From NCBI RefSeq assembly GCF_024204665.1, contig NZ_CP100355.1:248001-312000 (forward strand): a stretch of DNA of 64,000 nucleotides. The letters run 5' to 3'. The notes beneath the pieces were generated by a model. The model saw only the letters and a program-made list of their open reading frames with translations, did not search any database and was not told the origin of the DNA. Origin of the DNA: Natronosalvus rutilus (GTDB lineage Archaea > Halobacteriota > Halobacteria > Halobacteriales > Natrialbaceae). Of the stretch, positions 28,335 through 41,713 are shown piece by piece. The position numbers and the translations under genes were made by a program. Within the stretch, counting starts at the first letter, position 1; each line of letters begins with the position of its first letter.

Positions 28335-28467
28335 GGCTGATTTCTGGGCGGCCTGCCGTATGGACGTATCGACTTTCGACGGTGCGCGCCGGCGGCGTTC
28401 GACGTCGCGTCCTGGCGGCGCTCGAGCGCACACGCGTTCGCCGACGTCGCTTCCCTCGGCCCAGAGA

Positions 28468-28476
28468 CGACACTTT
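28468..28476 (+). promoter_or_regulatory. TATA-like box of hel308-cgi121
   Basis: ACTTTAAAC lies about 30 nt upstream of the hel308 ATG in the divergent spacer. Confidence 0.45.
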
Positions 28477-28504
28477 AAACCCGAGCACGGCCCAACGGAC
28501 GGCA

Positions 28505-30886
28505 ATGAACGTCGAGGACCTCTCGGGACTGCCCCCCGGCGCCCGCGAACACTTTCGCGAGGAGGGGATCGAGGAATTGTACCCGCCCCAGGCCGCCGCC
28601 GTCGAGGCGGGCATCCTCGAGGGCGACAGTCTCGTCGCCGCGGTGCCGACCGCAAGCGGGAAGACGATGATCGCCGCCCTCTCGATGCTATCGGCGATCG
28701 AACGCGGCGGGAAGGCGCTGTACATCGTCCCGCTCCGGGCGCTCGCGAGCGAGAAGAAGGCCGAGTTCGATGCGTTCGAACGGTTCGGCGTGACGACGGG
28801 CGTCACCACGGGCAACTACGAGTCCACGAGCGACTGGCTCGCCACGAAGGACCTGATCGTCGCCACGAGCGAGAAGGTCGACTCGCTCGTCCGCAACGGC
28901 GCCGACTGGCTCTCGGAGCTGACCTGCGTCGTGAGCGACGAGGTACACCTGATCGACGACCGCAATCGGGGGCCGACGCTCGAAGTGACGCTGGCCAAAC
29001 TGCGGCAACTCAACCCGGCCCTGCAGGTGGTCGCGCTCTCGGCGACGGTCGGCAACGCCGACGAGATCGCGGGCTGGCTCGGCGCCGAACTGGTCGACAG
29101 CGACTGGCGACCGATCGATCTCCAAATGGGGGTTCATTACGGCAACGCCCTCCACTTCGACGACGGGACGACCCGCGAGGTGCCCGTCGAGGGCTCGGAG
29201 AAGCAAGAGGAAGCCCTCGTCAGGGACATCCTCGAGGAGGGCGGCTCCTCGCTCGTGTTCGTCAACTCGCGGCGGAACGCGGAGGCGGCGGCCCGCCGGT
29301 TAGCGCGGACCAGCGGCCCGCAACTCACGCCCGAAGAGCGAGGACGACTCGCCGATCTGGCGACCGAAGTTCGGGACGTGAGCGACACCGAGACGAGCGA
29401 CGACCTCGCGACCTGCGTCGAGCAGGGGTCGGCGTTTCACCACGCCGGCCTGGCGAGCGAGCACCGGACGCTGGTCGAGGACGCCTTCCGCGACCGCCTG
29501 CTGAAAGTGATTTCGGCGACCCCGACCCTCGCCGCCGGCGTCAACACGCCCGCTCGCCGCGTCGTCGTTCGCGACTGGCGGCGCTTCGACGCCACCGCCG
29601 GTGGAATGGCGCCCCTGAACGTCCTCGAGGTCCACCAGATGATGGGACGGGCCGGTCGTCCAGGACTGGATCCCTACGGCGAAGCCGTCCTGCTCGCGAA
29701 GAACCACGACGAGATGGACGACCTCTTCGAGGGCTACGTCTGGGCCGAGCCCGAGGACGTCCGCTCGAAGCTCGCCGCCGAACCCGCCCTCCGAACACAC
29801 GTGCTGGCCACGGTCGCCTCCGGGTTCGCCACCACGCGCGAGGGGCTACTCTCGTTTCTCTCGGATACGCTTTACGCCAGCCAGTCGGGCGAGGCCGGCC
29901 GCCTCGAGACCGTCACCGACGACGTATTGGGCTATCTCGAGCGGAACGACTTCATCGAACGAGAGGGCGGGAACGGGAACGGGAGCGAAACAGAACCCGT
30001 CGACGAGGGCGCGTTCGTCTCCGCGGCCGATCTCGCCGAGCCGGACTCGAGCGACGAGGCGGTCACGCTCCGGGCGACGAGCCTCGGCCACACCGTCTCG
30101 CGGCTCTACCTCGACCCGATGAGCGCCGCCGAAATCGTCCACGGGCTCGAGTCCGCCGACGAACGACCCACGCCCCTCGGCCTGTACCAGTTGATCGCCC
30201 GCACACCGGACATGTACGAACTCTACCTCCGGTCGGGCGAGGACGAGAAGTTCGGCGAACTGTTCTACGAACGCGAGGCCGAGTTGCTCGGCGACGCCCC
30301 GAGCGAGTACGAGGACGCCCGCTTCGAGGACTGGCTCGCCGCCCTCAAGACCGGAAAGCTGCTCGAGGACTGGGCCGAAGAGGACGACGAGGATCGGCTC
30401 ACCGACCGGTACAAGATCGGACCCGGTGACCTTCGCGGGAAGGTCGACACGGCCGAGTGGCTCCTGGGCGCGGCCGAATCGCTGGCCGGCGAAATCGGCA
30501 GCGAGTGGACGGTCGCGGTACGGGAGGCCCGCGCCCGCGTCGAACACGGCGTCCGCGAGGACCTGCTCGAGTTGGTCGGGATCCGCGGCGTCGGTCGCAA
30601 ACGGGCGCGACAGCTGTACGCCGCGGGGCTCGAGACGCCCGCGGATCTCCGGGCGGCGGACAAGGGCATCGTGCTCGGCGCACTCAGAGGGGAGAAGACC
30701 GCAGAGACGATACTCGAGAACGCCGGTCGCGAGGATCCATCGATGGACGGCGTCGAGCCGCGAGCGCCGGACGGGTCGCTCCGAAGTGGCGGCAGTGGCG
30801 GTGGCACCAGCGAGGCCATCGAGTCCGCCGGCAGCAATGCAGAAGACGATGACGACGAAACGCAGGCCTCGCTGGGTGATTTCTGA
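28505..30886 (+). CDS. hel308: DNA repair helicase Hel308
   Basis: A 793-residue superfamily 2 Ski2-like helicase that translocates 3' to 5' and works on stalled forks. Motif I T-A-S-G-K-T is at 49-54, motif II D-E-V-H at 145-148, motif III S-A-T-V-G near 180, and motif [12 protein letters not shown] near 378. The winged-helix and ratchet domains follow, then a helix-hairpin-helix [11 protein letters not shown] near 696-706. An insertion [10 protein letters not shown] from a GGGAAC hexamer repeat interrupts the ratchet linker. The C-terminus ends in Q-A-S-L-G-D-F after an acidic disordered stretch, resembling a PCNA-interacting peptide. The stop overlaps the cgi121 start by one base, so the two are co-translated. 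Confidence 0.95.
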
Positions 30887-31443
30887 TGGAACTCCTCGAG
30901 GGCCGACTCCGCGTGGACGACCTCGACTCGTTCATCGCGGACCTCGGCGAAATCGGCGAGACACACGACGTGACGATCCAGGCGTTCGACGCCCGGTACG
31001 TCGCGGGTCGACGCCACCTCGAGCGAGCCGTCGCCCTCGCGGATCGGGCCACCGAGCGCGGCGAGAACGTCGCTCGCGACCGGGCCGTCGAGATTTTGCT
31101 GTACGCCGCCGGACGCCGCCAGATCGATCGCGCTCTCGAGATGGGCGTCGACGAGGGGGAATCAGACGTGATCGTGCTGATCGACGGGCAAGGCGACGAA
31201 CGTGCGGCCCGCACCGACCTCGAGGATAGATTTGGTCTCGAGTCCGTGTCGGCGCTCGAGACGGTGGAGGAGGTCGTAGACGTGGACGTAGACACAGACG
31301 TAGGCGAAGACGTAAACGTAGATCGGGACCTGGACACCGTGCGTTCGTTCTTCGAAATCAGCGACGTCGAGCGGGTGGCGACGACGGCGAGCCTCGAGGA
31401 CCTCGTGTGCGAGCGGGTGGCGTTGCTCGAGGTCGAGAAGTAG
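30886..31443 (+). CDS. cgi121: KEOPS complex subunit Cgi121
   Basis: A 185-residue KEOPS subunit. In the family it binds the Bud32 kinase and the tRNA CCA end to help Kae1 form t6A37. Recognised by Q-A-F-D-A-R-Y-V-A-G-R-R-H-L, then E-I-L-L-Y-A-A-G-R-R-Q-I-D-R-A-L-E-M-G-V, the strongly conserved Cgi121 core, followed by V-I-V-L-I-D-G. Its ATG overlaps the hel308 stop (TGATG), so translational coupling is likely. An acidic insert D-V-D-V-D-T-D-V-G-E-D-V-N-V from a hexamer repeat sits in a loop near residue 130. Kae1 and Bud32 are not in the window. Confidence 0.9.
   Translation: MELLEGRLRVDDLDSFIADLGEIGETHDVTIQAFDARYVAGRRHLERAVALADRATERGENVARDRAVEILLYAAGRRQIDRALEMGVDEGESDVIVLIDGQGDERAARTDLEDRFGLESVSALETVEEVVDVDVDTDVGEDVNVDRDLDTVRSFFEISDVERVATTASLEDLVCERVALLEVEK
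31276..31335. repeat. Hexanucleotide repeat inside cgi121
   Basis: Ten consecutive GTAGAC-like hexamers (GTAGAC, GTGGAC, GTAGAC, ACAGAC, GTAGGC, GAAGAC, GTAAAC and so on) keep frame and encode an alternating Asp-Val acidic loop. Confidence 0.8.
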
Positions 31444-31466: not shown

Positions 31467-32780
31467 TCAGACGACGGCGTAAAGCACCGCACCAGCGAGC
31501 GCACCCGAGACTGTCGCGAGGAAGTTCACGCTCTGGTTGCCGAGGAGGTCACCCTCGAGGGTCGCCCCCAGAATGCTGTCGGCGGTCATCCCCAGGAAGC
31601 CGGCGACGCCGATGACGAGCGCCCCCGTGAGTCCGACGCCGGGATACGCCACGTAGCTCACGCCTGCAACCGCGGCCGCACCGACGACGCCGGCGAGTTC
31701 GCCCTGCCAGGTGACGCCACCGTCGGTTCCCGGTTCGACGCGCTCGAACGTCGTGATCAGTCGCGGGGAATCGAAGACGCTCCCAATTTCACTCGAGAGC
31801 GTGTCGCTGAGCGCGGTCGCGATCGATCCGGCGAACGCGAACAGAAAGAGGTCGGGATCAACGGTGAGCAGGCCGGCCTCGCTGGCAGCGAACCCGACGA
31901 CGGCGACGAGCGCGGCCGCGGTGTTGCCGATCACGTTCGAACTCCCGCGTGCGCCGTCGTTTTCCTCGGCGACGCCACGGTCGGTCTTTTGCTCGTATCG
32001 AAACCGCGTCGAGAGGCTTCCCACGCCGAAGAACGTGATGAGGACGGCGAACCAGCCGTAGTCGCCGAGAACGATGGTCAAGAGCGCGAGCAAGATACCG
32101 GTGAGCATTCCGGCGATAGAGGCCGCACCCAGTGCGTACGAGACGTAGCCGATTGCGATCGTGATCGCGATTGCGATGACGATCCCGGCGACGTCGACGC
32201 TCGGCTCGAGTTCGTACAGGAGCCACAGCGAGAGGCCGACGGTGAGCAGGACGATCGGGTCGTCGTAGCTGATGAGCACGTCACGGAGCAACGCCGCGAG
32301 GAACGTGCCGCTCACGGCCAGAAACACGACCACCGGGAACGCGCTCTCGAGTGGGGCATCGGTGGCCAGCCGAGCGCCGAGCTGTCCGGCGATGGCGGCG
32401 ACCGAGCCGACAGCTCCGAACGCGATCGTCTGGAGGATGTCGGCGTCGGTTCGCGTTCGGACGAACGTCTCCGCCAGGCTGCCGTATCCTACGAGGAAGA
32501 CGACGCCGACGAAAATCGAGAGCGGGAGCGACCAGTTGACGGCGAGCAGACCGAGCGTCGTCGCGGCGAGAACGAACGTGAGGAGCCCGAACAGGTGTCC
32601 CTCGGCGTAGTCGTCCGGAAACGCGAAGAGATCGAAGACGGGGCCGTCGGTGACGGCGACGGCCACCAGCGCGAGGACGAGGGCGATCGGGGCCGACAGC
32701 TCCGGGCCGAAAATCGGAACGGCCAGCGAGAGCGTACAGAGTGCGGCGAAGGCTCCTGCCCGTCGAACCGGTGTCGTCAC
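31467..32780 (-). CDS. DUF92/TIGR00297-family integral membrane protein
   Basis: A 437-residue polytopic protein with about 12 hydrophobic segments. The C-terminal half carries the DUF92 signatures: A-L-S-D-T-L-S-S-E-I-G, then P-G-T-D-G-G-V-T-W-Q-G-E-L-A-G, and G-F-L-G-M-T-A-D-S-I-L-G-A-T-L-E. The family includes plant phytyl-phosphate kinase VTE6, so polyprenyl-phosphate or CTP-dependent kinase chemistry in isoprenoid lipid metabolism is plausible. The N-terminal half (about 200 residues) is extra membrane sequence. The start is GTG at 32780. The neighbouring cis-prenyltransferase-like gene, 255 nt away and divergent, also points to isoprenoid lipids. Confidence 0.8.
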   Translation of the reverse strand: MTTPVRRAGAFAALCTLSLAVPIFGPELSAPIALVLALVAVAVTDGPVFDLFAFPDDYAEGHLFGLLTFVLAATTLGLLAVNWSLPLSIFVGVVFLVGYGSLAETFVRTRTDADILQTIAFGAVGSVAAIAGQLGARLATDAPLESAFPVVVFLAVSGTFLAALLRDVLISYDDPIVLLTVGLSLWLLYELEPSVDVAGIVIAIAITIAIGYVSYALGAASIAGMLTGILLALLTIVLGDYGWFAVLITFFGVGSLSTRFRYEQKTDRGVAEENDGARGSSNVIGNTAAALVAVVGFAASEAGLLTVDPDLFLFAFAGSIATALSDTLSSEIGSVFDSPRLITTFERVEPGTDGGVTWQGELAGVVGAAAVAGVSYVAYPGVGLTGALVIGVAGFLGMTADSILGATLEGDLLGNQSVNFLATVSGALAGAVLYAVV

Positions 32781-33035: not shown

Positions 33036-33641
33036 GTGGGCCTGTACGAACGGTATCTCGCCGCACGGATCCGTCACCACGAGGGGGAGCCGCCGGCTCA
33101 TGTCGCGCTCGTGATCACCGAACGAGACCTCCTCGAGCGCGGTGCCTACGAGACGCTCGCGGAGTTCTTCACCTGGGCCTTCGAGTACGCCGAGCGCGTC
33201 ACCGTCTACGTGAGCGTGCTCGACCCGGCGGCCGTGCCGACGTTGCGACGCGAACTCGAGGAAATCGACGCTCCTCGAGCGGTGGCCGTCCGGGGACCGG
33301 ACGACCGACAATCGGCGGATACGCCCATCCAGATCGGAATCGGACTCGGCGGAAAACACGAATTTACGAGTGCGGTCCGGACGCTCGCAGAGCACGTCGA
33401 AGCGGGAGACCTCGAGCCGGCGATGATCGACGACGACGACGTCGAAGCACACCTGATCTTCCCGGACGAACCCGACCTCGTGATCAAGACCGGTGCCGAG
33501 CGGCTCTCGGACTTCATGATCTGGCAGTCGGTCTACTCCGAACTGTACTTCACCGACGTCAACTGGCGTAACGTTCGAAAGCGGGATTTTCTCCGGGCGG
33601 TCCGGGAGTTCTGTAATCGCTCGAGGCGGTTCGGGCGGTGA
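33036..33641 (+). CDS. Divergent cis-prenyltransferase homologue lacking catalytic Asp
   Basis: A 201-residue member of the undecaprenyl diphosphate synthase family. The C-terminal part is clear: P-D-L-V-I-K-T-G-A-E-R-L-S-D-F-M-I-W-Q-S-V-Y, then Y-F-T-D-V-N-W-R, the cis-prenyltransferase region V/IV. The N-terminal catalytic motif (D-G-N-R in the true UppS at 40748-41713) is replaced by A-L-V-I-T-E-R-D-L-L, so the diphosphate-binding Asp-Gly-Asn-Arg is gone. The protein is also shorter. Such proteins resemble the regulatory subunit NgBR/Nus1 of heteromeric enzymes. The start is GTG at 33036 (V-G-L-Y-E-R-Y-L-A). No upstream ATG exists in this frame near it. Confidence 0.8.
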   Translation: MGLYERYLAARIRHHEGEPPAHVALVITERDLLERGAYETLAEFFTWAFEYAERVTVYVSVLDPAAVPTLRRELEEIDAPRAVAVRGPDDRQSADTPIQIGIGLGGKHEFTSAVRTLAEHVEAGDLEPAMIDDDDVEAHLIFPDEPDLVIKTGAERLSDFMIWQSVYSELYFTDVNWRNVRKRDFLRAVREFCNRSRRFGR

Positions 33642-34252: not shown

Positions 34253-35554
34253 ATGAAATTAGAGGAATTCAAACGAGAGCACATTCGGGAGGGGACGAAC
34301 GTTCTCGTTCTCTCACCGCTCACCCCCCATGGGACGAAAGCGTTTACGGAGCTGCTTTCGACGACCAACCCATCCAGGACGAACATGGCTGTCGTGACGT
34401 ACACGCAGCCACCGAGCATGTGGTTGACGGACTGGGAAGCGGCCAGTAACGGTCCACCGAACGAAATCACCTTCATCCACAACGGATCGGAACCTGGCGA
34501 GGAGATCAGTACCGACCAGCAGCGACCGGGAACGATAAACACGGTCCGTGCGAGCCCACAGGACCCCATCGACGTCGTCACCCACCTCGGCGACGAACTG
34601 AAACGCTGGCAAGACGAGGGCAGGCAGTCGGTCATCTCCGTCCAGACGTTGACGATCCTGCTCGAGTACATCGATTTCGACACGGCATTTCGGTATCTGC
34701 ACATTCTCATCCACCGCGTGCAGGCTGCTGGAGCGATCGGGTACTACCAGATGGATCCCACGATCCACGACGAGGAAACGATCAACACGCTCTCGGTGCT
34801 CTTCGACGTCGTCGCCGAGGTCAGCCAGACCGAAACCGGCGAGGACGAGTGGACACTCGTCGGGAGCAAGTCACGCGCGGACGTCCCTCACGACCACGAT
34901 CACGGCTCGACGGTGGCGAAGTCGGAGTCGGAATCGGAACTGGACCAGTCGACGCGCGAGCGTACACCCGACGTCGAACGCCACACCGAACCACGACGAG
35001 ACAGGGACGGGAACGACCACTCGCCGCTCACCGAGTTCAAGACGTGGGTTAGCTCGCTCTGGTCCGGCGACGGAGGCGACGGAAGCGATGGAGGCGACAG
35101 CGCCCGGAAGCAACCACACGACCGGACGCTCGACGGAGGCGAAACCGGCCCTGCGACTAACGGGTCGCTCGAGACGGAGACGGACCAGCCACCCCGTGAC
35201 GCCGAAACCGAGCCGCCAGCACCGTCCCAGAACGGATCGAACGGGACGAGCGAATCGGTCGAACCGTCGGCGGCGCCCGCATCGGACGATCCACTACTGA
35301 CGGATCAGGAGCAGATCCAGCAGTTGATCGCCCAGTCCGGCGGCCGAATGCGACAGTCGGACCTCGTCGAGGAGACCAGGTGGTCGAGTTCCTCCGTCAG
35401 CCGCAAACTCTCGAGCATGGAAGAAGAAGGACTGATCACGCGCGTGCAGGTTGGCCGCGGGAATCTCGTTTTCCTCGCCGGCTACGAACCCGACGCGGCC
35501 GTCTCTCCATCCGGCACGTCGAGCGAACGAACGACGCCGCTGAAAGGCGAATAG
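34253..35554 (+). CDS. Degenerate KaiC-like (DUF7504-type) protein with C-terminal winged HTH
   Basis: A 433-residue three-part protein. Residues 1-200 look like a RecA/KaiC fold with a broken P-loop: L-V-L-S-P-L-T-P-H-G-T-K-A-F replaces GxxxxGK(T/S). A V-V-T-Y-T-Q-P-P-S strand and L-L-E-Y-I-D-F-D-T-A-F-R-Y-L-H-I-L follow. Residues of about 215-350 are acidic, Ser/Asp-rich and disordered. The end (about 355-415) is a MarR-like winged HTH, with Q-L-I-A-Q-S-G-G-R-M-R-Q-S-D-L-V-E-E-T and S-S-S-S-V-S-R-K-L-S-S-M-E-E-E-G-L-I. It probably binds DNA, with the KaiC-like part sensing or docking to a partner. It is the first gene of the signalling cassette. Confidence 0.75.
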   Translation: MKLEEFKREHIREGTNVLVLSPLTPHGTKAFTELLSTTNPSRTNMAVVTYTQPPSMWLTDWEAASNGPPNEITFIHNGSEPGEEISTDQQRPGTINTVRASPQDPIDVVTHLGDELKRWQDEGRQSVISVQTLTILLEYIDFDTAFRYLHILIHRVQAAGAIGYYQMDPTIHDEETINTLSVLFDVVAEVSQTETGEDEWTLVGSKSRADVPHDHDHGSTVAKSESESELDQSTRERTPDVERHTEPRRDRDGNDHSPLTEFKTWVSSLWSGDGGDGSDGGDSARKQPHDRTLDGGETGPATNGSLETETDQPPRDAETEPPAPSQNGSNGTSESVEPSAAPASDDPLLTDQEQIQQLIAQSGGRMRQSDLVEETRWSSSSVSRKLSSMEEEGLITRVQVGRGNLVFLAGYEPDAAVSPSGTSSERTTPLKGE

Positions 35555-35653
35555 GTCGTCTGCTGTCGGTCTGACGGTTGCACAGCCGCGCCCGAGATTG
35601 CCTGTACGCGCCGGTAACGCTGGATGGGACGGAACGGGACTGGTTGGGATAGC

Positions 35654-35666
35654 CAAAATTATTAAG
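35654..35666 (+). promoter_or_regulatory. AT-rich promoter element before the HalX regulator
   Basis: AAAATTATTAAGC lies about 70 nt upstream of the ATG at 35733 and could be its BRE/TATA with a leader of about 40 nt. TGTATAATAC directly before the ATG is a second candidate. Confidence 0.35.
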
Positions 35667-35732
35667 CTACGTAAGCAGATACCAAAGAGCGTCAAATACG
35701 ACACGAGCGACAACATATCTCCTGTATAATAC

Positions 35733-36320
35733 ATGGCGACATCAACAAACACTGCAGACGACTCGAATGGGGGGACGGTGCTCATCGTCGACGATGAGCC
35801 CGCAATCACCAGTGCGTACGCACGGTGGCTCGAAGGGACGTACGAGGTCAGGACCGCAAACAGCGGCCCAGATGCGCTCGAGAACCTCGACGAGGGGGTC
35901 GACGTCGTCCTTCTCGACAGACGCATGCCCGACGTGTCCGGCGACGAACTCCTGGCGACGATCCGAGAGCGCGGCCTGGATTGTCGGGTTGCCATCGTCT
36001 CGGCCGTCGAGCCGGACTTCGACATCATCGACATGGGGTTCGACATGTACCTCGAAAAGCCGGTTTCGGAGCCGAGCGAACTCCGGGAAACGGTTTCGAA
36101 ACTGCTAGACCGGTCGACGTACGACGAACAGATGCAACAGTTCCTCTCGCTCGCCTCGAAAAAGGCGTCGCTCGAGGCGAAAAAGAACGAAGAGGACCTC
36201 TCCTCGAACGAGGAGTACCAGGAACTCGCCGATCAGGTCGATTCCCTGCGAACGGACCTTTCGGCCACCGCAACGGAACTGGACGACGAAGATCTCCGTG
36301 CGGAGTTCCGCAACCACTGA
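35733..36320 (+). CDS. HalX-domain response regulator
   Basis: A 195-residue response regulator. The receiver spans residues of about 15-125, with the acidic pair in L-I-V-D-D-E-P, phosphoacceptor Asp62 in V-V-L-L-D-R-R-M-P-D, and Lys in Y-L-E-K-P-V-S. The HalX domain (about 130-192) is a helical output with S-L-A-S-K-K-A-S-L-E-A-K-K-N and S-N-E-E-Y-Q-E-L, found almost only in haloarchaea. Its output is unknown, as it lacks a DNA-binding fold. It sits between the KaiC-like/HTH protein and KaiC, so the histidine kinase downstream is its most likely partner. Confidence 0.9.
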   Translation: MATSTNTADDSNGGTVLIVDDEPAITSAYARWLEGTYEVRTANSGPDALENLDEGVDVVLLDRRMPDVSGDELLATIRERGLDCRVAIVSAVEPDFDIIDMGFDMYLEKPVSEPSELRETVSKLLDRSTYDEQMQQFLSLASKKASLEAKKNEEDLSSNEEYQELADQVDSLRTDLSATATELDDEDLRAEFRNH

Positions 36321-36503
36321 TTCGTTCGTCGTTCGTCGGCCATCGGATCGGCTGGTGCAGGGCTGCGATACCGTGTTCACAGCCTGCGTACTCGATGACG
36401 ATTCGACCGCCGAACGCCGAACGAGTCAGTTCCCATGAGACCGCTCGAGGATTGATCGACACAGAAACGAAACCCCACTCACCACGACGAAACGAGCGTA
36501 TCC

Positions 36504-37988
36504 ATGCCACCAGCAGATCGAATCTCGACCGGAATCACCGGTCTCGACACGATTATCGACGGCGGATTGATCCCGAACAGAAGCTACCTGATACGAGGAA
36601 ACCCCGGAACGGGGAAGACAATGGTCGGCCTGCACTTCCTGCTCGCGGGGGCCGAAAACGGCGAGGACGTCCTCTGTATCAACCTCGAGGAGTCCACGGC
36701 GGACATCACACGAAACGCCGAGTCCGTCGGCCTCGAACTGTCCGCAGTCGAATTTCTGGACATGAGCCCGAGTTCGGATCTGTTCCGCGAGTCACAGAAC
36801 TACAGCATTTTCTCCCCCGACGAGGTGGACCAGGAGTCGTTTGCCGCCGAAGTGACCGCCCGGATCGAAGAGATCGAGCCCAGTCGCGTGTTCATCGATC
36901 CGATCACGCGACTTCGTCACCTCGTCCCCGACGAGTACCAGTTCCGCCAGCAGGTCATCTCCTTCATGCGGTTTTTGCAGAACATGGATACCACCGTGAT
37001 GTTCACGTCCCAGCACATGGAGGGAGCCGCCGACGACGACCTCCAGTTCCTGAGCGACGGCACCTTTCACCTCGACAACGCCGAGCACGGGCGGACGGTC
37101 TCCGTCCCGAAACTTCGCGGGTCGGACGCCAGGCGTGGCCCACACTCGCTTCGAATTCGAGACGACGGCGTCGACGTGTTTCCCCGCCTCACGATTCCGG
37201 AGCAGGCCGACGACGCCGGGTTGGGAACGGTCCAGTCCGGCGTCCCGGCGTTCGACGAACTGTTGATGGGTGGTATAGACCGGGGGACGATCACCGTCAT
37301 CAGCGGGCCGACCGGCGTCGGCAAGACGACGACCGGCGCCCAGTTCATGAAAGAGGCCGCTGGACGCGGTGAGCGGTCGGTCATCTACATGTTCGAGGAG
37401 ACCAGGAAGACGTTCTTCGCGCGGGCCGAGAACGTCAACATCCCGGTCACGAACATGGTCGAACACGGGACGCTCGCCGTCGAGGAAGTCGAACCGCTCA
37501 ACCTCTCCGCCGAGGAGTTTGCACACAAAGTACGACGCGAGGTCGAGGAAAACGACACAAAGATCGTGATGATCGACGGCATCAACGGGTACCGACTCTC
37601 GCTGCGCGGCGAGCGAGAACGACTCATTCGGAAACTCCACTCGCTGGGTCGATACCTGAAGTCCAGAGGGGTAACCGTGATCCTCGTCGAGGAGGTCGGG
37701 ACGGTGACGAGCCAGTTCGAAGCGACCGACGTCGACATCAGCTACCTCTCCGATAACATCATCTTCCTGCGATACATCGAGGTCGATGGTGAAATGAAGA
37801 AAGTCATCGGCGTGTTGAAAAAGCGTACGAGCGACTTCGAGCGGACGATGCGCGAGTTCGAAATCTCGAGCCACGGCATCAAGGTCGGCGAACCGCTCAG
37901 GAACCTCCAGGGCATTCTCAGCGGGATTCCGACGCGAACCGACGAACGATCCATCCACCCCGATTCGACCCTCCATCCAGGCGAATGA
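36504..37988 (+). CDS. KaiC-family double-domain ATPase
   Basis: A 494-residue protein with two RecA-like KaiC domains, as in cyanobacterial clock KaiC. Walker A motifs are R-G-N-P-G-T-G-K-T (32-39) and S-G-P-T-G-V-G-K-T (268-275). The catalytic Glu pairs are kept in both domains: N-L-E-E-S-T-A and Y-M-F-E-E-T-R. The C-terminal domain keeps the autophosphorylation loop as A-T-D-V-D-I-S-Y-L-S-D-N, so the Ser is at 413 but the neighbouring Thr is Tyr414. A C-terminal L-Q-G-I-L-S-G-I-P-T-R motif matches KaiC. No KaiA or KaiB is seen. Its stop overlaps the histidine kinase start (ATGA), so they are co-translated. Confidence 0.9.
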   Translation: MPPADRISTGITGLDTIIDGGLIPNRSYLIRGNPGTGKTMVGLHFLLAGAENGEDVLCINLEESTADITRNAESVGLELSAVEFLDMSPSSDLFRESQNYSIFSPDEVDQESFAAEVTARIEEIEPSRVFIDPITRLRHLVPDEYQFRQQVISFMRFLQNMDTTVMFTSQHMEGAADDDLQFLSDGTFHLDNAEHGRTVSVPKLRGSDARRGPHSLRIRDDGVDVFPRLTIPEQADDAGLGTVQSGVPAFDELLMGGIDRGTITVISGPTGVGKTTTGAQFMKEAAGRGERSVIYMFEETRKTFFARAENVNIPVTNMVEHGTLAVEEVEPLNLSAEEFAHKVRREVEENDTKIVMIDGINGYRLSLRGERERLIRKLHSLGRYLKSRGVTVILVEEVGTVTSQFEATDVDISYLSDNIIFLRYIEVDGEMKKVIGVLKKRTSDFERTMREFEISSHGIKVGEPLRNLQGILSGIPTRTDERSIHPDSTLHPGE

Positions 37989-39400
37989 CTCCATCGTCGA
38001 CCGGTGAGAGACAGGCAGTGAGCGACGACGAGTCGGCTATCACGCCCCGAACGCGAGTCCTGATACCCGTCGATCACGATCAGAACCGGCAGTTGCTCGT
38101 CGACTGGTTGACGCCGAAATACGACATCGTCGTCCCCGATGTCGTGGAGACGGTCGACGTATCCTTCGACCTCTGTATCGTCGACGAAAGGGCGTTTAGA
38201 CGGCTCGAGGACTGGTGTACGTCCCGGAAGGAAGCCGTTCGGCCGACGTTCTTGCCGTACCTGCTGATCACGGATCGATCCCCCACGCCGTCTGCGTTGG
38301 ACCGTCACTGTATCGACGCCGTCGTGACGGTCCCGGTCAGGAAAGCCAAGTTGCGCGAACAGATCGACGACCTCCTCGCCAAACGACGGGAGTCGGTCGC
38401 GCTCACCGAGCAAAAGCGCCAGAGCCACGAGCGATTCCAGACGCTCTTTCACACGGCACCGGATCCGGCGTTCGTCTTTCGAGCCGACGGCCTCGTTCGC
38501 GAGGTCAATCGGGCGTTTTGTGCGAAGACGGGCCTCGAGCCCACCCAGGTCGTCGGCGAGCGGTTGCAGGATCTGGACGCGTTTTCGGACGACGTTCTCG
38601 AACGACTCCGTCCGGTGGACGAGGCAGGGGACGAGGAACGCGAAGTTGCGTACCGAACCGTCGACGGTCGCCGTCGAATTGCGGAGGTCAACACCTCCAG
38701 GATCGACACCGCGGACGAACTCGAGGAGATCATCGGAACCTTTCGCGACGTGACCGAGCAACGCCGACAGAAACGCGAACTCGAGCGCCTCGACGAGTTC
38801 GCGAGCATCCTCGCTCACGAACTTCGAAACCCACTCGGCATCGCCCAGATGTACCTCTCCATCGCACGAGAGAGCCACCAACCGGAGGATTTCGAGCAGA
38901 TCGACGACTCGCTCGAGCGGATGAGTGAGATGATCGACGAACTGCTCTCGCTCGCCAGAGAGGGCGAGACGCTCGACGTCACCGAACGGGTCTCGCTCGA
39001 GGCGGTCGTCGACGACGCCTGGTCCCAGGTGGCCGCACCCAAGGCGACCCTCCGGACGGAGTCGCTGTCCGGAACCGCCGAGGCGGACGTCGATCGGCTC
39101 GAGCGAGTGTTCGAGAACCTGTTTCGAAACGCCATCGAGCACGCGACGGACGACGTGACGGTGCGAGTCGGGGTGCTCGAGAACGAGCGGTCGGGCGTGT
39201 TCGTCGAGGACGACGGTCCCGGCATCGAACCCGGCGACCGCGAGACGATTTTCGACCGGGGGTTCACGACCGGAGGCAACGGGACCGGTCTCGGTCTCCC
39301 GATCGTCAAGCAGATCGTCGAGGCACACGGGTGGGAGATCGATTCGGTCGACAGCGAGACAGGCGCGCGATTCGAGATCGACGGACTGCGCCTCTCCTGA
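37985..39400 (+). CDS. Receiver-like/PAS histidine kinase coupled to KaiC
   Basis: A 471-residue soluble histidine kinase. Residues of about 20-135 form a receiver-like domain with Asp in D-L-C-I-V-D-E-R but no clear conserved Lys (T-V-P-V-R-K), so it may be a pseudo-receiver. A PAS domain covers about 148-255. The dimerisation box I-L-A-H-E-L-R-N-P-L-G has His278. The ATPase boxes are N-L-F-R-N-A-I-E-H, D-D-G-P-G-I, F-D-R-G-F-T and G-T-G-L-G-L. No transmembrane helix is present, so it senses an internal signal. The ATG overlaps the kaiC stop by four bases. A KaiC-controlled kinase acting on the HalX regulator, like SasA in cyanobacteria, is an inference from layout. Confidence 0.88.
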   Translation: MTPSSTGERQAVSDDESAITPRTRVLIPVDHDQNRQLLVDWLTPKYDIVVPDVVETVDVSFDLCIVDERAFRRLEDWCTSRKEAVRPTFLPYLLITDRSPTPSALDRHCIDAVVTVPVRKAKLREQIDDLLAKRRESVALTEQKRQSHERFQTLFHTAPDPAFVFRADGLVREVNRAFCAKTGLEPTQVVGERLQDLDAFSDDVLERLRPVDEAGDEEREVAYRTVDGRRRIAEVNTSRIDTADELEEIIGTFRDVTEQRRQKRELERLDEFASILAHELRNPLGIAQMYLSIARESHQPEDFEQIDDSLERMSEMIDELLSLAREGETLDVTERVSLEAVVDDAWSQVAAPKATLRTESLSGTAEADVDRLERVFENLFRNAIEHATDDVTVRVGVLENERSGVFVEDDGPGIEPGDRETIFDRGFTTGGNGTGLGLPIVKQIVEAHGWEIDSVDSETGARFEIDGLRLS

Positions 39401-39979
39401 ACAGGGACTCGTTTTCGACGCCAGGCCCCAGGTCACGAGCGAGTGCTCCGGCGACGACGTGATGGCTCAAAATTCGCCGCTCGCATCTCGAGTAGCGTCG
39501 CCTCGAGTGCGGTCCACTGTCGCTGTGCAACGCCATGGGAGGGTCACCTCGAGTGTGGTTCAGCCTGAATGTGTGGTAGAGACAGACTCACAGTATTCGT
39601 GGGGGAACGTGCCCTCTGCCGAACAGGATGTCCGTTACGACGCGATCGAGACGACGGGCATCCGAACGCGTCTCACCCATAGAGATACTGATAAATAGCG
39701 CCCGGTCCGGAAGTCATTAATATACCTTTCGGCCATCCCAGGGAATTGCACGGCAAACTCCTGAAAGAGCGTGAAATGACGCGAAAAACGGAAATTGCAA
39801 GCAACGTTTACGCCTCAGTAAGAACCGTTTACGATTTCCAGGTATTGCCGTCACTGCTGTGGGTTTTGGCTCTTGCAACAGTTTCCGAACAGCCAAAACA
39901 ATCGTAGAGGCCACTGCAACTGTTCGAAATTTACTGGATGGGGTTTATCGCTTTATTACCCTCTCCGCTATCGTACCTG
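39401..39979. other. 579-bp intergenic region with AT-rich stretch, no gene supported
   Basis: It lies between the histidine kinase and the membrane-anchored HTH gene. ATTAATATACC (39716-39726) is a strong TATA-like box with no gene to serve within 200 nt. Downstream it is lower in GC, with repeated GTTTACG and TTGCAA words (39790-39905). A second TATA-like CTTTATTA (39951-39958) fits the following gene as a leaderless promoter. A non-coding transcript starting near 39750 is possible. I see no secondary-structure hallmark that would name it. Confidence 0.45.
39951..39958 (+). promoter_or_regulatory. TATA-like box of the DUF7344-type gene
   Basis: CTTTATTA is centred about 26-28 nt upstream of the ATG at 39980, consistent with a leaderless transcript. 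Confidence 0.5.
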
Positions 39980-40627
39980 ATGATGAGTCAATCACGAACC
40001 GCATCCACGACGCACGACACACCAGCTGTCGACGAGTCCCCCATCAGCGGATCCGCGTCCGAAGACGCGGACACGGAGGAAGAACCCACCCTTTCGAAGG
40101 ACGAAATCTTCCACCTGCTGCAAAACGAGCGTCGTCGCTTCGTCCTGCAATATTTGCAGGGGAAGGACGACTCCGTACGCATGCCTGACATCGCAGAACA
40201 GGTAGCCGCCTGGGAGAACGACACGACAGTCGAGCAACTGTCCTCACAGGAGCGCCAGCGCGTGTACATCCCGCTCTACCAGTCCCACCTGCCCAAGCTG
40301 GACAAGGCCGGGATCATCGACTACAACCAGAGTCGTGGCATCGTCGAGCGGAAACCCCTCGCTGACGAGATGGACCGATACATCGACGCCGAGCGGGACG
40401 GCGACGACCAAGGGCCGGACGCCAGCGCGAGCCCCGACTTCGCGTCGGGCCGCTTCGTGGGCTTCACCGGCGTCTCGGCGATGGTGTTCCTCGGTGCCAT
40501 CCTCGAGGTCACGGCCTTCTCGCCGCTCTCGATTGCCATCCTGTTCGCCGTCGCGCTCCTGGGATACACCCTGATGACGGCAGAGAAGTTCAACGACGGC
40601 GTCTTCGGCCGAACCGACCAGTCGTAA
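39980..40627 (+). CDS. Membrane-anchored winged-HTH protein (DUF7344-type)
   Basis: A 215-residue protein. Residues of about 35-125 form the haloarchaeal DUF7344-type wHTH, with E-I-F-H-L-L-Q-N-E-R-R-R-F-V-L-Q-Y-L, a helix M-P-D-I-A-E-Q-V-A-A-W-E-N, and Y-I-P-L-Y-Q-S-H-L-P-K-L-D-K-A-G-I-I. Two transmembrane helices follow (about 160-200: V-G-F-T-G-V-S-A-M-V-F-L-G-A, then I-A-I-L-F-A-V-A-L-L-G-Y). A DNA-binding domain tethered to the membrane is the likely arrangement. The N-terminus is acidic. The M-M start leaves 39980 or 39983; the promoter spacing suits both. It follows the KaiC cassette, on the same strand. Confidence 0.78.
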   Translation: MMSQSRTASTTHDTPAVDESPISGSASEDADTEEEPTLSKDEIFHLLQNERRRFVLQYLQGKDDSVRMPDIAEQVAAWENDTTVEQLSSQERQRVYIPLYQSHLPKLDKAGIIDYNQSRGIVERKPLADEMDRYIDAERDGDDQGPDASASPDFASGRFVGFTGVSAMVFLGAILEVTAFSPLSIAILFAVALLGYTLMTAEKFNDGVFGRTDQS

Positions 40628-40747: not shown

Positions 40748-41713
40748 TCAATCCGCCACTCGTCCGTTCGAGTCGACCGTTTCGACTCGTCCGTCAGCGT
40801 CGGTACTCAGGTTCTCGAGTTCATCGACTGCCGACTGTTCGGCCGTCGGCAAGGAATCGCGAAACCGCGAGAGGATCGCCCGCGCGTCGGCGAGTTCGGG
40901 TTCGCTCACGGCACCCAGCAGCGCCAGTGCCCGTCGGGCGCGCGTCCGTCGCCAGGACGCCTCGCGGTGTTCGTAGGTCCTGATCCCGCGCAGGAAGTCG
41001 GCTTTGGAGAACTCCGGCCAGTACGGCGCACAGAAGTAGACTGCGGCCTCGTTTCCGTTGGCGTGCCAGGGCAGGAAGTTCGAGGTTCGTTCGTCGCCGC
41101 CGGTTCGGATGATCAGATCCACGTCGCGAACCGACTGCCCGTACAGGCGCTCGTCGATCGTCTCGACGTCGATGTCCGCCGGCGAGAGCGACCCCGCCTC
41201 GACGTCTCGAGCGACGCTCCGGGCGGCCTCGAGCAGGTGGGTCCGACCGCCGTAGGCCAGCGCGACGTTGAGGACGAACCGGTCGTAGTCGGCCGTCTGC
41301 GATTCCGCGTAGTCGATGGTCTCGCGAACCCGGGGCGGCAGGCGTTCGATGTCGCCGATGGCGCGAATGCAGACGCCGTTGTCGTGGACGCGATCGGCGT
41401 CAGCGAACTCCCGGAGTTTCTCACAGAGCAGGTCGAACAGCGCCTCGCGTTCGTGCTCGGGTCGAGAGAAGTTTTCCGTCGAGAATGCGTAGAGGGTGAG
41501 TTCCTCGACGCCGATTTCCTGACACCACTCGAGGACCCGCTCGGTCGTGTCGGCGCCGGCTCGGTGTCCGTCGGGGGCGTCGTCGCCGTGTTGCCGGGCG
41601 TAGCGGCGGTTTCCGTCCTGGATCACGGCGACGTGCGTCGGCGCGCCGGAGACTTCACTAGAAAGCAGCCGCTCGTAGCCCCAGTTGATTCGCCGACGAA
41701 GCCAACTCCTCAT
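40748..41713 (-). CDS. uppS: Undecaprenyl/cis-polyprenyl diphosphate synthase
   Basis: A 321-residue cis-prenyltransferase that extends allylic diphosphates with IPP to the dolichol- or undecaprenyl-type lipid carrier used for glycosylation. All regions are present: A-V-I-Q-D-G-N-R-R-Y-A with Asp33, E-L-T-L-Y-A-F-S-T-E-N-F-S-R-P, L-I-I-R-T-G-G-D-E-R-T-S-N-F-L-P-W, and Y-W-P-E-F-S-K-A-D-F. The final about 70 residues are an acidic extension not needed for catalysis. The start is at 41713 (M-R-S-W-L-R-R-R-I-N); 41725 adds four residues. A second, catalytically incomplete homologue lies at 33036-33641. Confidence 0.93.
   Translation of the reverse strand: MRSWLRRRINWGYERLLSSEVSGAPTHVAVIQDGNRRYARQHGDDAPDGHRAGADTTERVLEWCQEIGVEELTLYAFSTENFSRPEHEREALFDLLCEKLREFADADRVHDNGVCIRAIGDIERLPPRVRETIDYAESQTADYDRFVLNVALAYGGRTHLLEAARSVARDVEAGSLSPADIDVETIDERLYGQSVRDVDLIIRTGGDERTSNFLPWHANGNEAAVYFCAPYWPEFSKADFLRGIRTYEHREASWRRTRARRALALLGAVSEPELADARAILSRFRDSLPTAEQSAVDELENLSTDADGRVETVDSNGRVAD

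Follow-up and report, generated by a model that had tools for sequence, protein, structure and literature searches.

A cis-prenyltransferase homologue lacking the catalytic DGNR motif in Natronosalvus rutilus as the probable small subunit of a heteromeric polyprenyl-diphosphate synthase

To investigate the cis-prenyltransferases (cPT) of a haloarchaeon in silico we analyzed a stretch of 64,000 nucleotides (the window) from the genome of Natronosalvus rutilus, which comprises 4.3 Mb in four contigs and is 99% complete. The features of the locus are collected in Table 1. Two genes of the window belong to the cPT family PF01255, and the genome encodes no further member of this family. The shorter one, regarded here as a putative small subunit, starts with GTG (coding 33036-33638, stop 33639-33641). 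Its Pfam match is restricted to the C-terminal half (residues 96-200, corresponding to positions 115-219 of the 219 profile positions), where the family signature IKTGAERLSDFMIWQ is found. An initial annotation had described this reading frame as a cPT homologue that keeps the signature but has lost its catalytic motif, and both parts of that description hold. The longer gene encodes a UppS protein that matches the entire profile.

Table 1. Coordinates of the cPT genes, their diagnostic motifs and the neighboring DUF92 gene, in window positions.
Feature	Coordinates	Strand	Evidence
Putative non-catalytic cPT small subunit (Nus1/NgBR-like), 201 aa	33036..33641	+	PF01255 E 3.5e-24; 145/145 Halobacteria; no DGNR; C-terminal RxG; AF2 pLDDT 87, cPT fold
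T28-E29-R30-D31 in place of catalytic D-G-N-R	33117..33128	+	Alignment with UppS and E. coli UppS
R198-F199-G200, RxG motif one residue from the C-terminus	33627..33635	+	Aligns with E. coli R242-F243-G244 and human NgBR C-terminal ...QRLGK
UppS/DHDDS-like polyprenyl diphosphate synthase, putative catalytic subunit, 325 aa	40748..41725	-	PF01255 E 9.2e-70; best PDB profile match human DHDDS
UppS catalytic D37-G38-N39-R40	41606..41617	-	Invariant in 79/79 partner UppS
UppS S257-W258-R259 where RxG is expected (absent)	40949..40957	-	Alignment
UppS C-terminal helical extension (rest of H241-272, then H275-291, H294-304)	40751..40948	-	AF2 model; DHDDS matches (profile and structure) reach into the region
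DUF92 integral membrane protein, predicted to resemble polyprenyl-phosphate kinases (VTE6 family, from homology only)	31467..32780	-	PF01940 E 9.8e-57

The two cPT genes are separated by about 7.1-7.3 kb. A block of signal-transduction genes of about 7 kb (34253-40624) lies between them and contains a DUF7504/DUF7343 regulator, a HalX response regulator, a double KaiC protein, a PAS histidine kinase and a DUF7344 protein. The spacing of the gene pair is 846 bp in a genome of the same genus (G045) and below 2 kb in most relatives; the block is a lineage-specific insertion or rearrangement. On the other side of the small-subunit gene lies the divergent DUF92 gene that the initial annotation had pointed out. 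Its product reaches PF01940 but scores under the cut-off of TIGR00297; we take the DUF92 family to include the plant phytyl-phosphate kinase. Upstream of the DUF92 gene a Hel308-like helicase and a homologue of Cgi121 (KEOPS) are encoded at 28466-31440.

In the alignment of both proteins the segment H22-V-A-L-V-I-T-E-R-D31 of the small subunit is placed opposite H31-V-A-V-I-Q-D-G-N-R of UppS. As this segment aligns with the H-V-A-x-x-x-D-G-N-R pattern, the column of the catalytic Asp is occupied by Thr28, and V-I-T-E-R-D stands at the position of the D-G-N-R motif. The equivalents of E. coli D26, N28, R30, H43, S71, N74, W75 and R77 are gone from the small subunits, whereas UppS retains all or nearly all of these residues, except that W75 is replaced by Phe. 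The equivalent of R200 is variable in the small subunits. At the other end of the chains the situation is reversed. The small subunit terminates with R-R-F-G-R, whereas S-W-R of UppS sits opposite the RxG motif of the E. coli enzyme. The UppS described as complete in the initial annotation is thus correctly located at 7 kb distance, but it is not complete, since its C-terminal RxG is missing. With just two PF01255 genes in the genome, this means that the sole catalytic cPT of N. rutilus lacks RxG.

To place this observation in a broader context the subunit pairs from 40 further haloarchaeal loci, nearly every one from another genus, and from other Halobacteriota were collected. DGNR occurs in none of the 74 small subunits, and in all 74 the chain ends one residue past [R/K]-x-G, with Lys instead of Arg in a single protein. 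The partner UppS behave in the opposite way: DGNR is present in 79 out of 79 and an in-register RxG (R[RK][FYH]G) in 0 out of 79. Two paralogues of the MM_0014 type show the same pattern as the partner UppS, with DGNR present and R[RK][FYH]G absent. Both motifs were found on one chain in E. coli UppS and in two other bacterial homologues. The class of homodimeric UppS, defined by DGNR and RxG on one chain, was therefore rejected for either protein of the window. In the UppS of two methanogens a looser R-x-G is found about one residue short of the register (RSG at locus L161, RAG at L166); as it is near the right place, the loss of RxG may be incomplete in these proteins. The small subunits of two loci (L173 in genome G220, L199 in G211) are highly degenerate and still end with ERSRRFGR and ERERRFGR, respectively, as though selection had persisted longest on the tail.

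AlphaFold2 single-chain models reached a pLDDT of 87 (small subunit) and 89 (UppS). The small-subunit model has the cPT fold (structure match E 4.5e-12). Its best matches are human DHDDS and bacterial cPTs, with a TM score by query of about 0.6-0.74, and catalytic cPTs including DHDDS outscore the NgBR chains. The long helices that follow the DGNR loop and the STENFxRP motif in UppS are missing from this model; a product tunnel would therefore not be expected in the predicted small subunit, and no membrane segment was seen in its 201 residues. For UppS, human DHDDS is the first match with the model (299 columns) as well as with the sequence profile, which reaches into the C-terminal extension of DHDDS. 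The modeled C-terminal helices of UppS recall the helix-turn-helix tail of DHDDS.

The occurrence of the two genes was examined across genomes. PF01255 was found in 194 out of 194 Halobacteria genomes, with at least two copies in 193, and small-subunit orthologues were present in all 145 Halobacteria genomes searched. Across the phylum Halobacteriota 142 out of 148 genomes gave a match, and all 38 sampled non-halobacterial genomes of the phylum having PF01255 possess at least two copies. A family-profile search of three genomes of one family (f17; G200, G218, G227) found no PF01255 of either kind; these archaea seem to be without a cPT or to use something undetected. Compared with nine relatives, the small subunit of the window shows dN/dS values of 0.12-0.18 and UppS of 0.16-0.26, with the lower value for the small subunit in every comparison. 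The catalytically dead copy is thus constrained at least as strongly as UppS. Its presence in 145 out of 145 Halobacteria together with this purifying selection is an argument that the observation is not due to chance, and the same two results rule out that the gene is a decaying copy or pseudogene.

The neighborhood is conserved as well. Among the 114 Halobacteria with positions listed for both genes, these are convergent with a gap below 10 kb in 82 and below 2 kb in 70. A convergent pair also occurs in 14 genomes of other Halobacteriota families, where the two genes are between 6 bp and 2.8 kb apart. The DUF92 gene is divergent from the small-subunit gene in 38 of the 40 other haloarchaeal loci. 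The preservation of the tail-to-tail order across many non-haloarchaeal families (loci L160-L162 and L164-L171) is odd, as convergent genes are unable to share an operon; antisense or 3'-end coupling of their expression is possible.

The genes present, their key residues and conservation, their joint occurrence and the modeled folds are what is observed directly. On this basis the reading frame at 33036-33641 very probably encodes the non-catalytic small subunit, and UppS the catalytic subunit, of an obligately heteromeric cPT, a polyprenyl-diphosphate synthase in which RxG would be lent in trans. We infer the binding of the subunits, the activation and the product in N. rutilus. Four features of a non-catalytic subunit of heteromeric cPTs in the broad sense are found, namely cPT homology, loss of the catalytic residues, a C-terminal RxG and a cognate cPT in the same genome, while a physical complex and the activation of UppS are predicted. 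The initial annotation had already suggested a non-catalytic partner of UppS, and this proposal gains support at the level of sequences and models from the reciprocal loss of DGNR and RxG, the co-occurrence, the neighborhood, the purifying selection, the predicted folds and the heteromer of Methanosarcina mazei.

Mechanistically, the Asp37-Mg site and the hydrophobic tunnel, together with the arginines that bind pyrophosphate, would come from UppS, which would have given up the C-terminal RxG tail by which the monomers of homodimeric cPTs complete each other's active site. The small subunit would have given up the tunnel helices as well as the catalytic Asp and the residues for pyrophosphate binding, retaining the core on the dimer side and the RxG tail. 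It could dock onto UppS in the manner of the second monomer of a homodimer, with its RFG-R tail inserted into the UppS site and organizing the allylic (S1) and IPP (S2) pockets. The human complex provides the parallel: the RxG tail of NgBR reaches the active site of DHDDS, where backbone atoms of L291 and G292 bind the phosphate of the IPP site, and K293 touches R37 and R85 of DHDDS with its terminal carboxylate (PMC7573591). As UppS keeps the matching R40 and R88, which are invariant, and as the tail of its partner has the same length as that of NgBR, we infer by analogy that the small subunit may lend RFG-R to UppS. RxG is not strictly required of non-catalytic subunits, since yeast Nus1 does not possess it (PMC7573591). 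The product might be a C55-C60 polyprenyl diphosphate, the precursor of the dolichol phosphate for N-glycosylation. The carrier lipids of M. mazei are C45-50 (PMC8131916) and the dolichol phosphate of Haloferax volcanii is C55/C60 (PMC3827465). Because archaeal carriers range from C45 to C60, the small subunit probably serves the activity of UppS itself via the RxG tail, rather than the formation of unusually long chains.

An alternative would be that UppS functions as a homodimer without RxG, the small subunit being an independent regulator or a lipid-binding pseudoenzyme. This could be conceived because MM_0014, which ends with TLGG instead of RxG, is active with no partner (PMC8131916), and because human DHDDS alone is active, although NgBR raises the activity markedly (PMC7573591). 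However, the UppS proteins analyzed here are without TLGG as well as without RxG, and neither the co-occurrence and conserved neighborhood nor the exact conservation of the RxG-x terminus fits an independent role. Two cPT paralogues of M. mazei form a heteromeric enzyme (PMC8131916). We therefore regard this alternative as improbable. It is still less probable that the small subunit chiefly tethers UppS to the membrane or links it with the adjacent DUF92 kinase, thereby channeling polyprenyl phosphates, with no direct catalytic role. The divergent DUF92 membrane protein at nearly all haloarchaeal loci compared speaks for such a coupling, but divergent gene order implies co-regulation at most, the small subunit shows no membrane segment, and it would be left unexplained why RxG is missing from UppS and why its partner invariantly ends with RxG-x.

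The initial annotation had conceded that its own reading would fall if another alignment revealed a catalytic Asp, and the small subunit could indeed be imagined as catalytic by itself if Asp31 were used in another register. Asp31 is conserved in 69 out of 72 aligned small subunits, and four distant ones carry an Asp in the D26 column, albeit not followed by G-N-R. Yet Asp31 is found opposite the arginine of DGNR, three residues past the catalytic Asp, the other catalytic residues are lost or, in the case of R200, variable, the tunnel-forming helices are missing from the model, and human NgBR does not possess this Asp. It was consequently rejected as alternative catalytic residue, and we attribute a very low probability to self-sufficient catalysis.

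The proposed division of labor between UppS and a non-catalytic small subunit is in agreement with known systems. In the same phylum, M. mazei MM_0618/MM_1083 is a demonstrated heteromeric cPT with C45-50 products, according to a statement in PMC8131916 citing Emi et al. 2019. The genus Methanosarcina encodes an orthologous subunit with no DGNR and a C-terminal RRYG-K/R, as judged from other genomes of the genus and not from the genes of M. mazei itself. In our tree the archaeal small subunits, including the Methanosarcina protein, lie on one side of a branch with support 77. The haloarchaeal genes are usually close, convergent and beside DUF92, whereas they are far apart in the Methanosarcina genome sampled (G310). 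While the heteromer is demonstrated for M. mazei, the haloarchaeal pair is known from sequence and models, and N. rutilus is without the third, MM_0014-type paralogue. This type (PDB 7CAQ) is also without RxG, but it ends with TLGG, has DGNR, acts alone and forms a separate branch of the tree. It was seen in two sampled genomes, as a third cPT paralogue ending with DITLGG (L186 in G213, L197 in G221), and its occurrence in Halobacteriota is scattered. The homodimeric E. coli IspU shares fold and family, with DGNR and RxG together on one chain instead of divided over two.

The human enzyme DHDDS/NgBR (NUS1; PDB 6W2L, 6Z1N) resembles the window pair in both chains: the catalytic one possesses DGNR and is extended by C-terminal helices but is devoid of RxG, and NgBR has no DGNR and ends with RxG plus one residue. 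The NgBR chains (the sequence used was that of PDB chain 6w2l_B, 100% identical) align with nearly the full small-subunit profile, from the N-terminal P-x-H-x-x-L-V-I-T-E common to both proteins through the terminal RxG-x. In contrast to NgBR, the small subunit has no N-terminal transmembrane part and begins at the cPT domain (VGLYERYLAARIRHHEGEPPAHVALVI...), a start region shared by all haloarchaeal homologues; it was therefore not classified as NgBR/Nus1 proper. The expected C55-C60 products are also shorter than most eukaryotic dolichols. The resemblance to NgBR/Nus1 stated in the initial annotation thus applies to the architecture, and orthology, which neither trees nor profiles decide, is not claimed here. 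In the best tree NgBR joins the archaeal small subunits (85), with NgBR on a very long branch, and the AU test is also compatible with a grouping of NgBR and UppS (p-AU 0.84). The profile scores are similar for both, as the small-subunit profile scores no higher against NgBR than that of UppS. Labor is divided in the archaeal pair as in the eukaryotic one, with DGNR and a helical tail on one chain and HxxLVITE and the RxG-x terminus on the other. The split could therefore predate the eukaryotes, and their dolichol synthase might have been inherited from archaea as a two-subunit enzyme rather than arising twice. We regard this as possible, though less likely than not.

Haloferax volcanii and Halobacterium are main models of archaeal N-glycosylation. 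In the open-access literature we found no paper in which a cPT of two subunits is assigned to a haloarchaeon. The window pair apparently joins the known kind of heteromeric cPTs, which would then be phylum-wide in Halobacteriota. This leads to the prediction that the glycan carrier lipid is made by an enzyme with a split active site in every Halobacteria genome and in nearly all Halobacteriota. Genes of the small-subunit type labeled as 'undecaprenyl diphosphate synthase family' are accordingly predicted to encode partners and not redundant enzymes. The haloarchaeal pair would represent a soluble and genetically tractable relative of a human disease complex (NgBR R290H), and through it the question of how the eukaryotic complex originated becomes accessible to testing.

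We further report two observations on the variation of the family. The small subunits of one Halobacteria genus (g22; G065, G027, G038, G133, G006, G011) appear to be enlarged by a central insertion of up to about 50 residues, as indicated by split matches. Some Halobacteria (G002, G061, G068, G098, G105, G148, G149) possess a third PF01255 copy, and at least those of G068 and G148 are further full-length UppS-like genes.
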